Below are positions 24,981-29,955 of a stretch of DNA of 64,000 bases, in pieces. The position numbers were made by a program, and so were the translations under genes. Under the pieces are notes generated by a model. It did no database searches. It was given only the letters and a program-made list of their open reading frames with translations, and was not told the origin of the DNA. Source of the stretch: Leptolyngbyaceae cyanobacterium C42_A2020_001 (GTDB lineage: Bacteria; Cyanobacteriota; Cyanobacteriia; Leptolyngbyales; Leptolyngbyaceae); the NCBI GenBank assembly GCA_015272515.1, contig JACYLN010000061.1:62001-126000 (forward strand), written 5' to 3'. The number at the start of each line of letters is the position of its first letter. The first letter of the stretch is position 1.

Positions 24981-26453
24981 TCAGGTTAAGGGCAGGAGGA
25001 TTTCAAATTCTGTTCCGGTGATATCGGTGTCAGATTGTGGGGAAATGAATCCTTCTGAGGTATCTCCCCAGGCAGCTCGGCGTAACTCGTTATTAGCGGC
25101 ACTGCGAGAACGCACCTTAAATCGCCCGCCATGCTTTGCTGTGACAATTTGATAGCTAACTGCCAGGCTGGTTTCTTTCTCGGTGCGGCGTTGTACCGAA
25201 AAAGATTCCAACAGTTGCCGTTGGGCTTCTCTCGACAAACCAGGTCCATTATCTGCGATTTGAATTACAACCCAGCGAGTCGTGGCTCCAGTGGGTTCGG
25301 GTATTGAGCAAACCTGTGTGGTAATTGCGATCGCAGGTTTAACAGGTGATGCTGCCATTGGCTCACCTTGATTGCGGCGTGTCTGAAAATCCAAATCAAG
25401 CTGTTGACTCACGGCTTGAATCAGCAAACTATCCAGGCAATTGCTCAAAATATTCATGAACACTTGGTTGAGTTGCCCCGGATAGCACATGACTGGCGGC
25501 AAATTTCCATACTGTTTAGTTACCTCAATATCACTACTTAAGCGGCTCTTAAGCAGCAACAAAATGCTGTCAATCGATTCGTGGAGGTCGGTTGGTTTGG
25601 GATACACCTCATCAATGTGGCAGAAGTTTTGCAGGCTGGTTGCCAGCTTAGACAAACGCTCTGCCCCAGTTTTAACGCTTTCGATCGCTCGTGGTAAATC
25701 TTGGCGTAAATAATCTAGTTCGATCGCTTCTCGCAGTTGTACCAACTCAGGCGATGGGTTGGGCAGTGCCCGTTCATAGGCAATCAGCAACTCCAGCACT
25801 TCCTGACTATACGAAGCGATGTGGCTCAGGTTGCCCCAAATAAAACTGACAGGATCTAAAATCTCGTGGGCAACTCCATCTACTAAGCGCCCCAGATTTG
25901 CCATTTTGTCGCTCTGAATCATTTGTGCCTGAGTTCGCTCGTAGCGTACTTGCGTCTCAATTCCGCGAATTTGCCAATGGGCAATATTAAGTTCGTGAAC
26001 ATCTAGCAGGTAGTAAGACTGGTCTATCTGCACGACAATCGGTTCGCCGAGTAGTTCGGGCGATCGCCGTAGGGCTTGTTGAGCTGCCGTCAAAATCGAG
26101 GTTTCTCCTGACAATAGGAGCCATTCACACCGGGCGTAACTATGCAAAACCCAGAGGGATTCCTGCAAGAACATCTCCATGCCATGAGGGCGAATCAGGA
26201 ACTCTAGCAGGCGCTGACGAGAAATCATGCCAACGACTCGACTTTGGTCAACCAGCACCGCGCCCGGCAACAGGGTATGTCGCTCAAACACTTGAGCCAG
26301 TTCTGTTCCTAAACAGTGGATGGAGATTTCAAACCGATGCAGCGGCAGATCTTGAAGAACCGACTCAAGATGCAACGCCTGGCAGCTTCCTCCAGATACG
26401 GTTGGAACCATAGACGATTTACGAGGTGAGGTAGACGCAGAACGATTCCCCAT
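24981..26453 (-). CDS. CBS-domain histidine kinase with unusual G2 box
   Basis: 490 residues, cytosolic (no membrane helices). N-terminal CBS pair (about 25-165: SVLQDLPLHRFEISIHCLG, RVVGMISRQRLLEFLIRPHG, ELLGEPIVVQIDQSYYLLDV), short coiled coil, then the dimerisation/phosphoacceptor helix MANLGRLVDGVAHEILDPVSFIWGNL near 183-208 with the phospho-accepting His. HATPase domain: N box QVFMNILSNCLDSLL, G1 box IADNGPGLS, then EKETSLAVSYQIVTAKHGG where typical kinases have a GxGLGL lid. The lost lid glycines may weaken ATP turnover. An 18-residue acidic/Ser loop sits near the C-terminus. No response regulator is adjacent. Faces the same way as the FHA block upstream. Confidence 0.85.
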   Translation of the reverse strand: MGNRSASTSPRKSSMVPTVSGGSCQALHLESVLQDLPLHRFEISIHCLGTELAQVFERHTLLPGAVLVDQSRVVGMISRQRLLEFLIRPHGMEMFLQESLWVLHSYARCEWLLLSGETSILTAAQQALRRSPELLGEPIVVQIDQSYYLLDVHELNIAHWQIRGIETQVRYERTQAQMIQSDKMANLGRLVDGVAHEILDPVSFIWGNLSHIASYSQEVLELLIAYERALPNPSPELVQLREAIELDYLRQDLPRAIESVKTGAERLSKLATSLQNFCHIDEVYPKPTDLHESIDSILLLLKSRLSSDIEVTKQYGNLPPVMCYPGQLNQVFMNILSNCLDSLLIQAVSQQLDLDFQTRRNQGEPMAASPVKPAIAITTQVCSIPEPTGATTRWVVIQIADNGPGLSREAQRQLLESFSVQRRTEKETSLAVSYQIVTAKHGGRFKVRSRSAANNELRRAAWGDTSEGFISPQSDTDITGTEFEILLPLT

Positions 26454-26655: not shown

Positions 26656-28080
26656 CTAGATTTCAATCGAACTGTTCTGAATTTGTTGTAGTGCTTCTGC
26701 TAACTCCTGACCGGAAGCGAATCGTTCAGTGGGTTGCAGGTTTGTGAGTTTGCGAATCACTGCTGCCAGATCAGGAGTCAGCCCTGGAACATACTCCGCA
26801 TAAAAGCGAAATCCTTGCTCGCGCTGAGCGTAGAAGGCGGCGGGCGATTTGCCTGTAAGGAGAAATACTAAAGTGGGACCAATCGCGTATAGATCAGAGG
26901 CAAACGATGCTTGTCCCTGCTGTTGTTCGGGTGCGGCGTACTCTGCTGATGCTTGCAGCGGTGCAATCAACCTACCCGGTGTTAACCCTGTCACCATCAA
27001 TGGGGTCGTGGCACTGCGCTGAATCAAATATTCTGGCTTGATGCGCTGGTGCAGGATGGGTGGCGTTTGGGCATGAAGATAGTCAAGCGCAGCACATACT
27101 TCGAGAATTCGGGCGATCGCAACTTTCTGAGTTAACGGACTTTCTGTGGTAACAACTTGGCGCAGCGATCGCCCATAAACTGGTTCCATCACCAAATAAG
27201 GCTGCCCAGCAACTGAAAATACATCTAGAAATCTGGGTAACGCTGGATGATTGATCGCTAGAAACAGCCTTGCCTCCTGTTCAAAGAGTTCTACTGCTTC
27301 TGAAAGCTGTGCCCAATTTGGCAAAAGAGTTGTCAGCACAACCGCTTTTCCATCTTTCCAGGCAAGTTGAACCGTGCTCAGTTCATCCTCCTCCAAAACT
27401 TTGACAAGCTGATAATCACCCACAACACCCAGCGGCTTCAACGGCTTGCCACATTCCAGGCAGAAAAGATGACCAGAATCAACGAATTGATGACAACAGG
27501 CGGAGAGTGTGAAACGATGACTAACGTGTGCTGGGTTTACCGCATCATCTGCTTGCACCGTTGTTCCTAAAAACGAAGCAGTGGATGATTTTGCTGGTTG
27601 AGTTCCCTCTTCTTGCGATTCCGTTGTGACGTAAGCTTCCACTTCAGCTGGTGGCGACACCACATCCACATCCATTTCTGGAATTTCCGTTGGTCCCACG
27701 GAGGCAACGCTCACAGGATGTTTGGCATTTTGCCCAACCGTTTTCTCGCCCATAGCAGAGTGAGAGGTTTCGGCACTCTGGGGCGTGAGATGAATTTGCA
27801 CGTTAGGACCAGAACGAGCCAGCCGAATGATCACCCCATCGTCTACAGGAACCTGAGTAATTCGCCGCCCATCCAGATAAGTTCCGTTCGCGCCCAGATT
27901 GACAATTTCCCAGCCAGACTCTACTTTACGGATTTCAACGTGGTGCCGAGAGACAACTGCACTGTAGAGGATGACATGGTTATCTGTCGATCGCCCAATC
28001 CGAATAGTAGACTCCTGCTCAAAGGTCCAGCTTTGAACAGGAATGGACTGCATTGGATGCAACAAGGTGAGAGTAATCAC
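26656..28080 (-). CDS. FHA - zinc ribbon - pseudokinase protein
   Basis: 474 residues. FHA domain at 1-98 (IGRS 28-31, SRHH 44-47, NGTYLDG 65-71), acidic linker, zinc ribbon (Cys195/Cys196, Cys207, Cys210), and a protein-kinase fold from about 222 to 470. Key kinase residues are replaced: the glycine loop reads LEEDELSTV, the VAIK Lys is Thr250, HRD reads H344-Q-R346, the following Asn is Tyr351, and DFG reads T364-G-L366. Structural residues remain: Glu269 of helix C, APE (383-385), SDLYAIG with Asp396. It should fold as a kinase without phosphotransfer, acting as a phosphothreonine-reading scaffold. Upstream (28333-29151) lies another zinc ribbon-FHA gene on the same strand, 250 bases away. 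Confidence 0.88.
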   Translation of the reverse strand: MITLTLLHPMQSIPVQSWTFEQESTIRIGRSTDNHVILYSAVVSRHHVEIRKVESGWEIVNLGANGTYLDGRRITQVPVDDGVIIRLARSGPNVQIHLTPQSAETSHSAMGEKTVGQNAKHPVSVASVGPTEIPEMDVDVVSPPAEVEAYVTTESQEEGTQPAKSSTASFLGTTVQADDAVNPAHVSHRFTLSACCHQFVDSGHLFCLECGKPLKPLGVVGDYQLVKVLEEDELSTVQLAWKDGKAVVLTTLLPNWAQLSEAVELFEQEARLFLAINHPALPRFLDVFSVAGQPYLVMEPVYGRSLRQVVTTESPLTQKVAIARILEVCAALDYLHAQTPPILHQRIKPEYLIQRSATTPLMVTGLTPGRLIAPLQASAEYAAPEQQQGQASFASDLYAIGPTLVFLLTGKSPAAFYAQREQGFRFYAEYVPGLTPDLAAVIRKLTNLQPTERFASGQELAEALQQIQNSSIEI

Positions 28081-28332: not shown

Positions 28333-29151
28333 CTACGAAAGTTGAAATAGAAACGTCACCTTATCGCCTTTGCCGAGGGCAACGCGATCGCCAGGTCGCA
28401 GCCGATGCCGATTTCCCATTGCGAGCGGAAGGTTATTTATATAGGTTCCATTGGAACTGCCCACGTCTTCAATGTAGTATGCATCACCTTCTAAGCGAAT
28501 ATCGGCATGGATTCGTGACACAATCTCAGAGTTGGGAAACCCAGATACATCAATATCGGGTGGGATGCGATCGTTTGGCTTGCCAATGTGAATGATGGCT
28601 AACCCTGGTGGTAGCTCAACCGAGGTATTCGTCTGCACATGCAGCAGGCGAGCATTTTGCTGTTGTAGCTGGGTTCGTCCCTCTGTTGAGCTTGGGGTTG
28701 GATGAGCTGTTTGAGCAGGAACTGCCGATTCCAGCGGTGCATCAGGGAAGGAGTCTAACTCTTCAACGATTGCTGCTGGCTGGACAGGCGCATCTGGCAA
28801 GGAATCTAACTCGTCAACAACCTCATCAACGACTAAGTTTGGGATTGGCTCAGAGGGATGGGGAACTGGCATCGGAGCGGGGATTTCAGGATTTGGCTCA
28901 GGGATAACGAGCGAATCCATCTGACCTAATGCGGATGCTTCACGTACAGGTGGGGGAGGAGAACCGATGGATACTGCGGGAATAGAAGCCGCTTTCAGGT
29001 TGAAGCCACACTGCCCACAAAAGCTGGCATCGGTTTGAACAGTTGCACCACAGTTGGGACAGGAGGTTGTCGCTGGTAAGGGTGTGTAACACGCCTCACA
29101 CTGAACCGCGCCATCAGGGTTTTGATGGTTGCAATTTGGACAAACAATCAT
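28333..29151 (-). CDS. Zinc ribbon - FHA protein
   Basis: 272 residues. Two CxxC pairs make a double zinc ribbon at 1-50 (CPNCNHQNPDGAVQCEAC and CPNCGATVQTDASFCGQCG), followed by a 110-residue acidic Pro-rich linker with a repeated EELDSFPDAP/DELDSLPDAP unit, then a C-terminal FHA domain (about 170-272: IHIGKPNDRIPPDIDVSGF, IVSRIHADI, IEDVGSSNGTYINNLPL, LGKGDKVTFLF). The conserved Ser/Arg-His and SSNGTYIN residues that bind phosphothreonine are present. A likely partner of the pseudokinase next door, which shares both domain types. Confidence 0.85.
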   Translation of the reverse strand: MIVCPNCNHQNPDGAVQCEACYTPLPATTSCPNCGATVQTDASFCGQCGFNLKAASIPAVSIGSPPPPVREASALGQMDSLVIPEPNPEIPAPMPVPHPSEPIPNLVVDEVVDELDSLPDAPVQPAAIVEELDSFPDAPLESAVPAQTAHPTPSSTEGRTQLQQQNARLLHVQTNTSVELPPGLAIIHIGKPNDRIPPDIDVSGFPNSEIVSRIHADIRLEGDAYYIEDVGSSNGTYINNLPLAMGNRHRLRPGDRVALGKGDKVTFLFQLS

Positions 29152-29238: not shown

Positions 29239-29955
29239 CTATAACCCCTCAGCCGCAGCTTGGTCTAGCAGCCATAAGAATGCTCCTTGAGGTTGGATGA
29301 GGCGAGAAGGATACTGGGCATCATCTCCTTCGGTGGCAAACACGTGGCGCAGGGCGTTTTGCTTGTTGGCTCCAGAAACCAGAAAAATCACCACACGAGC
29401 GTGGTTAATCAACGGCACTGTAACTGTGATTCGGGGTTGTCCGTCTTTGCTCCCAACAGTAATCAGGCGATCGCGAACATTGAGCGCTTCAGTGTGCGGA
29501 AACAAGGAAGCTGTATGCCCATCGTCGCCCATCCCTTGCAGCATCAGGTCAAAGACGGGGAACTCGCTGGGCGGGGTTTGAAAAAAAGCGTGCAATTCCG
29601 CATCGTACTTGGCGCTATCGATCGCCGGATCACCAGAACCAGTGGGCATGGGGTGAACATTGCCTGCCGGAATGGGGACGTGATTTAGCCAGGCTTTGCG
29701 GGTCATTCCTTCGTTGCTATCGGGGTGTTCGACGGGAACATACCGTTCGTCACCCCAAAAAACATGAATGTTGTCCCAGGGCAGATCTTGTTCAGCCAAT
29801 TTCTCATAAATCGGCTTGGGTGTACTGCCACCCGACAGTGCAATTGTGAAGCGCCCTCGCTCGGCGATTGCATTTTGGGCTTGTGCCAGGATCAATTCCA
29901 GTGCGCGCATCGTTAAGGCAGCTTTATCGGGCAGAATTTCAACCGTTTTTTGCAT
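29239..29955 (-). CDS. pgl: 6-phosphogluconolactonase
   Basis: 238 residues, usual size. Hydrolyses 6-phosphogluconolactone in the oxidative pentose phosphate pathway, the main dark NADPH source in cyanobacteria. Blocks: FTIALSGGSTPKPIYEKLA near 38-56, WDNIHVFWGDERYVPVEHPDSNEGM near 61-85, FDLMLQGMGDDGHTASLFPHT near 134-154 (catalytic His in DGHTASLFP), and ITVTVPLINHARVVIFLVSGANK near 176-198. Single gene downstream of the sigma factor in map order but on the same strand, separated by 150 bases. Confidence 0.95.
   Translation of the reverse strand: MQKTVEILPDKAALTMRALELILAQAQNAIAERGRFTIALSGGSTPKPIYEKLAEQDLPWDNIHVFWGDERYVPVEHPDSNEGMTRKAWLNHVPIPAGNVHPMPTGSGDPAIDSAKYDAELHAFFQTPPSEFPVFDLMLQGMGDDGHTASLFPHTEALNVRDRLITVGSKDGQPRITVTVPLINHARVVIFLVSGANKQNALRHVFATEGDDAQYPSRLIQPQGAFLWLLDQAAAEGL

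Follow-up and report, generated by a model that had tools for sequence, protein, structure and literature searches.

An FHA-zinc ribbon-pseudokinase protein beside fraH, from a cyanobacterial family in which the kinase domain is intact, degenerate or absent

The gene at 26656..28080 on the minus strand of the DNA analysed here, a stretch of 64,000 nucleotides from a Leptolyngbyaceae cyanobacterium that we call the window, encodes a protein with an FHA domain, a zinc-ribbon-like motif and a kinase domain whose active site has been destroyed. We place a probability of about 0.6 on the reading that this protein is a phosphothreonine reader in which the kinase domain has turned into a non-catalytic scaffold that retains its fold; most likely it would act as the reader or scaffold of the FraH operon, with the writer function passed to a paralogue. 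The direct observations behind this reading are an invariant FHA pocket, the destroyed active site, a predicted fold under purifying selection, an active sister copy and a pgl-fraH-fha gene neighbourhood. Across relatives, one conserved gene position with one FHA reader is found with an intact kinase, with a kinase that lacks one to three of its catalytic residues, or with no kinase at all.

The gene starts with GTG (28078-28080) and its product has 474 amino acids; the open reading frame, its coordinates and the architecture were all checked. The FHA domain spans aa 1-98 (27787..28080, minus strand, as are all parts of the gene given below) with a Pfam FHA match at aa 26-87 (E 1e-14), and is followed by a disordered linker at aa 102-186 (27523..27777), which has pLDDT < 50 throughout and is the fastest-evolving part of the protein. 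Alignment of orthologues and paralogues then identifies a zinc-ribbon-like CxH...CxxC motif (27439..27504), C195-x-H197-x9-C207-x2-C210, a putative zinc ribbon that is degenerate in some orthologues. The remainder is a Hanks-type pseudokinase domain at aa 220-470 (26671..27423), recognised by Pfam Pkinase (match at aa 260-455, E 1.3e-15), AlphaFold2 and Foldseek. The nearest named genomes to that of the window are Leptolyngbyaceae-type cyanobacteria, and the GTG start is unusually conserved for a non-ATG codon, occurring in 76 of the 80 homologous loci (L038-L117) compared across cyanobacteria. Orthologues are present in most relatives sampled, which rules out a chance open reading frame; a sequencing error or pseudogene is likewise ruled out by the open frame, by the occurrence of R346, Y351 and G365 in a sister genome as well, and by low ω.

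We compared catalytic positions by aligning 59 orthologues and 30 paralogues with the kinases of the window's own genome. Thr250 (27331..27333) replaces the β3 Lys, Arg346 (27043..27045) the HRD Asp, Tyr351 (27028..27030) the catalytic-loop Asn and Gly365 (26986..26988) the DFG Asp. The HRD motif thus reads H-Q-R, its Arg being Q345, the DFG motif reads G365-L366-T367, and both glycines of the Gly-loop are replaced (E230 and D232). With the β3 Lys, HRD Asp and DFG Asp all absent, together with the Asn and the Gly-loop, the domain shows the motif loss by which pseudokinases are recognised, while the αC Glu (E269), the APE Glu (E385) and the αF Asp (D396) are still present. The kinase domain of the congeneric sister (G002) is 84% identical and has R346, Y351 and G365 in common with the window protein; the only difference at these positions is that the sister keeps Lys250. 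A sequence-only reading of the window had proposed the FHA-zinc ribbon-kinase layout at 26656-28080, and the open reading frame, Pfam and the alignment bear this out. The same reading held that the essential Lys and both Asp residues were replaced while structural residues remained: the alignment agrees for Thr250, Arg346 and the retained E385 and D396, but its choice of Thr364 as the DFG position is ruled out, since Gly365, one residue later, aligns with the DFG Asp column. The losses in the Gly-loop (E230/D232) and at Q345 and Y351 had not been listed, and the active FHA-kinase paralogue, the FHA-only orthologues at the syntenic locus and the fraH operon were beyond what that reading could take in.

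The other half of the protein has changed far less. Its Pfam match and the residues R30, S44, H47 and N65 identify the N-terminal domain as a member of the FHA family, for which phosphothreonine binding is predicted, and R45, G66 and T67 complete the pocket. R30, S44, R45, H47, N65 and G66 are identical in all 93 FHA domains of the window protein's orthologue family (the q family) and T67 is found in 92 of them, so that the pocket is constant irrespective of whether a dead kinase, a live one or no kinase at all follows the FHA domain. In the active paralogues, by contrast, 7 of 30 have another residue in place of N65. The window and sister (G002) FHA domains are 99% identical. These sequence comparisons point to the reader half as the constant function and the writer half as the optional one. 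Short Thr motifs (KDTLVD, KETLID, NTLINA, DTFINS, TTVINQ; pTxxD/N-like) were also observed near the C-terminus of proteins from FHA-only loci (L086-L117), and many fused orthologues carry GE-x-T-x-x-Q directly after the FHA domain (T114 in the window protein). In OdhI and GarA, phospho-switch sites are bound by the FHA domain, and by analogy both kinds of motif could be candidate phospho-switch sites for FHA binding.

Directly upstream of the pseudokinase gene is a fraH-like gene with a double zinc ribbon and an FHA domain (28333..29151, minus strand; Pfam DZR and FHA), and the conserved synteny marker pgl, encoding 6-phosphogluconolactonase, lies at 29239..29955 on the same strand. This placement of fraH directly upstream recurs in 68 of the 80 homologous loci. 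Nine loci, most of them from Acaryochloris- and Thermosynechococcus-like genomes, have 2-6 nt between the stop codon of fraH and the GTG, a spacing that suggests translational coupling of fraH and the q-family gene in those loci. A promoter scan between fraH and the pseudokinase gene returned nothing above chance. Heterocysts of Anabaena require FraH to reorganise their membranes (PMC11500504 and references there), and the arrangement described here places FraH beside a phosphothreonine reader in many cyanobacteria. In Nodosilinea-type genomes (L093, L095, L102, L104, L105, L107, L113 and L117) pgl adjoins an FHA-only gene and fraH is missing between them. The next gene after the pseudokinase gene in the window (24981-26453) encodes a histidine-kinase-type ATPase domain, and of the relatives only the closest (L038, L040 and L041) have the two genes side by side.

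A second FHA-zinc ribbon-kinase is encoded on contig C48 of the window's genome; it is 37% identical to the window protein, has intact motifs and is adjoined by a PP2C phosphatase gene. The kinase-domain tree groups the window and paralogue families as sisters to the exclusion of the genome's other kinases (97% SH-aLRT). All 30 sampled members of the paralogue family are catalytically intact, 23 of the 30 have a PP2C gene within 1.5 kb, and the pseudokinase and paralogue genes are unlinked. In the reading we favour, an ancestral FHA-zinc ribbon-kinase would have duplicated, with the other copy staying catalytically intact, usually beside PP2C. Phosphothreonine would be written by the paralogue and/or other Ser/Thr kinases and read by the FHA domain of the window protein, and the pseudokinase C-lobe may dock a partner at its αF-αG face, and this partner could be either the paralogue or a kinase substrate. 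A phosphorylated client would thereby be linked to a complex that includes FraH.

The state of the q-family copy varies with the presence of this paralogue. Genomes that bear the paralogue have 36 degenerate and no intact q copies, against 18 degenerate and 19 intact copies in genomes without a detected paralogue. The corresponding Fisher p value of 1.7e-7 ignores kinship and is meaningless as such because the genomes are related, with just some four or five independent groups carrying the paralogue; a phylogenetically corrected test leaves two pairs on supported branches, too few for significance. The pattern was first seen in an initial sample, and further, previously unseen genomes were then fetched as a check: the q copy proved degenerate in all 13 newly fetched genomes that bear the paralogue, including those of a previously unsampled family (f25), where DFG has become GFG, although the frame is truncated in one of the 13 (G063), which was left out of the tree. 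The association between paralogue and decay is therefore suggestive, with no counterexample in the sample, and the 18 degenerate copies in genomes without a detected paralogue indicate that the paralogue is not needed for decay.

This association bears on two other readings in which the paralogue has a larger part. The first, a tentative one to which we give a minority share of belief, is that a kinase/pseudokinase pair divided labour after duplication, leaving a writer that acts with PP2C and a reader that docks to or regulates the active paralogue; catalysis was lost repeatedly, in separate lineages that keep the paralogue. The second, which we consider doubtful, is that the pseudokinase acts allosterically, binding and regulating the active FHA-kinase paralogue as in STRAD/LKB1 or a receptor pseudokinase, instead of being a passive scaffold. 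Pseudokinase and active paralogue are indeed sister families, a degenerate partner copy is present in 36 of 36 paralogue-bearing genomes sampled, and no sampled genome combines an intact copy with an intact paralogue; the two genes are unlinked, however, 18 genomes have the degenerate copy without the paralogue, and the co-occurrence reflects few independent events.

The wider orthologue series shows how the kinase domain has fared at this locus. The triad of β3 Lys, HRD Asp and DFG Asp is kept in 18 of 59 distinct fused orthologues, 15 of which also keep the catalytic Asn, and all three residues are lost in three of the 59 (the window protein, L012 and L058). Irreversible losses counted on the kinase tree number 10 for the HRD Asp, 9 for the DFG Asp and 7 for the β3 Lys, counts that rest on a rapidly built tree containing forks of weak support; they suggest recurrent decay, with at least 9-10 independent losses at each of the two Asp positions. 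The DFG Asp is missing from the entire 20-member clade that includes the window protein, the HRD Asp and Asn are missing throughout the window's genus, and the β3 Lys was the last loss in the window's lineage since the sister (G002) still has it. Replacements vary among close relatives, with T, K, R or I at the β3 position and R, Q, T or D at the HRD Asp position. The sequence-only reading had regarded relatives with intact residues at the same position as grounds for abandoning its pseudokinase call. Such relatives do occur, as 18 of the 59 orthologues, and they imply that the family is not uniformly dead and that catalysis was lost many times, with visible timing; the call for the window protein itself stands. 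The orthologues L060, L066 and L079 and their relatives (L034-L036) form a triad-intact clade that lacks the zinc ribbon and has Gln for the αC Glu; in L060, L066 and L079, fraH and pgl are absent within 8 kb. In L099 (720-2296) the fused homologue is split into two frames of 336 aa and 209 aa while its close relative L087 is intact, which points to a misassembly or a recently broken gene.

A second cyanobacterial set comprises 32 loci in which the same syntenic place (pgl-fraH-fha) is occupied by an FHA-only gene that ends after the FHA domain. In a whole-class survey roughly half of the best matches are long frames (369 aa or more) and the other half FHA-only frames, both kinds sometimes occurring inside one family, and in the FHA tree the FHA-only forms are nested among fused ones, away from the base, with weak support. 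One FHA-only protein (L115) retains the fused-type linker IPVPPHLKL and ends before the zinc ribbon, which means that its kinase was truncated away, and another (L084) retains the linker GETTLAQR. No kinase sequence was found within 2.5 kb downstream of the FHA-only loci (one match at E 0.59), ruling out gene fission with the kinase encoded just downstream. That the kinase is missing in several lineages argues that it is dispensable for the core FHA function, a point against the reading we favour. With this series one can test directly what role is left to a kinase domain that no longer catalyses, and whether a sister copy is freed from catalytic duty by an active paralogue.

FHA-only orthologues at the pgl-fraH locus (L084-L117), along with the linker traces in L115 (IPVPPHLKL) and L084 (GETTLAQR), are also what one would expect if catalysis had ceased to be needed, the work were done by the FHA domain and the kinase domain of the window protein were a decaying relic heading for loss. 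Fold and selection make this unlikely. An AlphaFold2 model built with 46 orthologues has a mean pLDDT of 83.4, with the kinase blocks mostly at 93-98 and the FHA domain above 90, and contains the αC helix (260-273); the best Foldseek matches are Rad53, an FHA and kinase protein, at the top, and the mycobacterial Pkn proteins PknB, PknI and PknA. By NG86 estimates, ω of the kinase domain is 0.043 between the window protein and its sister (G002), a rough value because dS is near saturation, and in unsaturated pairs it is 0.06-0.10 where catalytic residues are lost versus 0.04-0.09 where the triad is intact. Against the relic reading, then, the dead domain matches intact relatives in its low ω, the fold is intact across long divergence, and the C-lobe is more conserved in the window's clade than in the paralogues. 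In that clade, conservation of the pseudokinase peaks in the αF-αG stretch of the C-lobe (about aa 409-448; 26737..26856, minus strand): mean conservation in the eight-member clade is 0.81 at αF-αG (aa 391-440) and 0.64 at the catalytic loop, whereas the active paralogues show the opposite order (catalytic loop 0.79, αF-αG stretch 0.59). Conservation thus seems to have moved from the catalytic loop to the αF-αG face. As the fold is predicted with confidence and purifying selection acts on the dead domain as it does on intact relatives, we consider the kinase domain of the window protein a real, maintained pseudokinase, predicted to lack phosphotransfer. The pseudokinase call made from the sequence alone is therefore supported by motif loss, predicted fold and purifying selection; its further description as a phosphothreonine-binding scaffold with a kinase-shaped domain fits these observations and the invariant FHA pocket, the scaffolding itself being a role that the domain would plausibly serve. 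An atypical enzyme that binds nucleotide or performs another transfer through non-canonical residues, as SelO or SidJ do, is the least likely explanation and a highly improbable one. In its favour are the retained αC Glu269, the Lys250 of the sister and the precedent of bacterial pseudokinases that have gained new activities (PMC12599244); against it, neither metal-binding position has an acidic residue (Y351, G365), the Gly-loop is gone, and the replacing residues differ among close relatives, unlike those of a new active site.

FHA-kinases in cyanobacteria and families of bacterial pseudokinases are already known (PMC2176072, PMC12599244), the latter being almost unstudied in the laboratory (PMC12599244). 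Neither an FHA-fused pseudokinase family nor this live-dead-absent series at one locus turned up in the open-licence papers that could be searched. The FHA-type Ser/Thr kinases of cyanobacteria (cbSTKII) were surveyed as putative active kinases by Zhang et al. 2007 (PMC2176072), who excluded 17 proteins with incomplete catalytic domains; these kinases share with the window protein an N-terminal FHA domain, a Hanks-type kinase domain, solubility and a cyanobacterial origin, but the window protein is without any catalytic residue and its orthologue series is not in that survey. Mycobacterium tuberculosis MviN with FhaA (ActPs3, PMC12599244) likewise combines a bacterial pseudokinase with an FHA-phosphothreonine interaction, and the β3 change is alike (VAIK to VALT in MviN, VVLT in the window protein). 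In the MurJ-linked MviN system, however, the FHA domain is on a separate protein and reads the phosphorylated pseudokinase tail, whereas here FHA and pseudokinase are joined in a single soluble chain that has neither a transmembrane nor a MurJ part; as a 474-aa cyanobacterial protein with only FHA domain, linker, zinc ribbon and kinase domain, the window protein falls outside ActPs3. The CP1 family of cyanobacterial and proteobacterial kinases, about 40% of them pseudokinases (PMC12599244), resembles the window's family in being cytosolic and cyanobacterial, with live and dead members and variable motif loss, yet all CP1 pseudokinases are linked to a COG3899 ATPase domain where the window protein has FHA and zinc ribbon, and only FHA, kinase and related models match it in Pfam and NCBIfam. 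DLHK pseudokinases lack the β3 Lys and DFG Asp but keep the HRD Asp and Asn (PMC12599244), which are Arg346 and Tyr351 in the window protein; in GLW pseudokinases GLW replaces HRD and a transmembrane segment follows the kinase (PMC12599244), whereas the window protein has H-Q-R and ends at the kinase domain.

Among proteins that share single parts of the architecture, FraH (Anabaena alr1603), whose homologue is the directly upstream neighbour of the pseudokinase gene, has a zinc ribbon and an FHA domain but no kinase domain. Rad53/Chk2 has the FHA and kinase architecture but is an active eukaryotic kinase of convergent architecture, with 15% identity. The small bacterial FHA phosphothreonine readers GarA, OdhI and FhaB resemble the FHA-only orthologues; their sequence similarity does not extend beyond the FHA fold (E values of 2e-4 and weaker) and they have no kinase domain. 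Other kinases of the window's genome (G000: L004, L121 and L136) also depart from the canon at catalytic residues (HRC/NV, HEN/EV and HGN), and judging by these motifs the genome may hold more pseudokinases.
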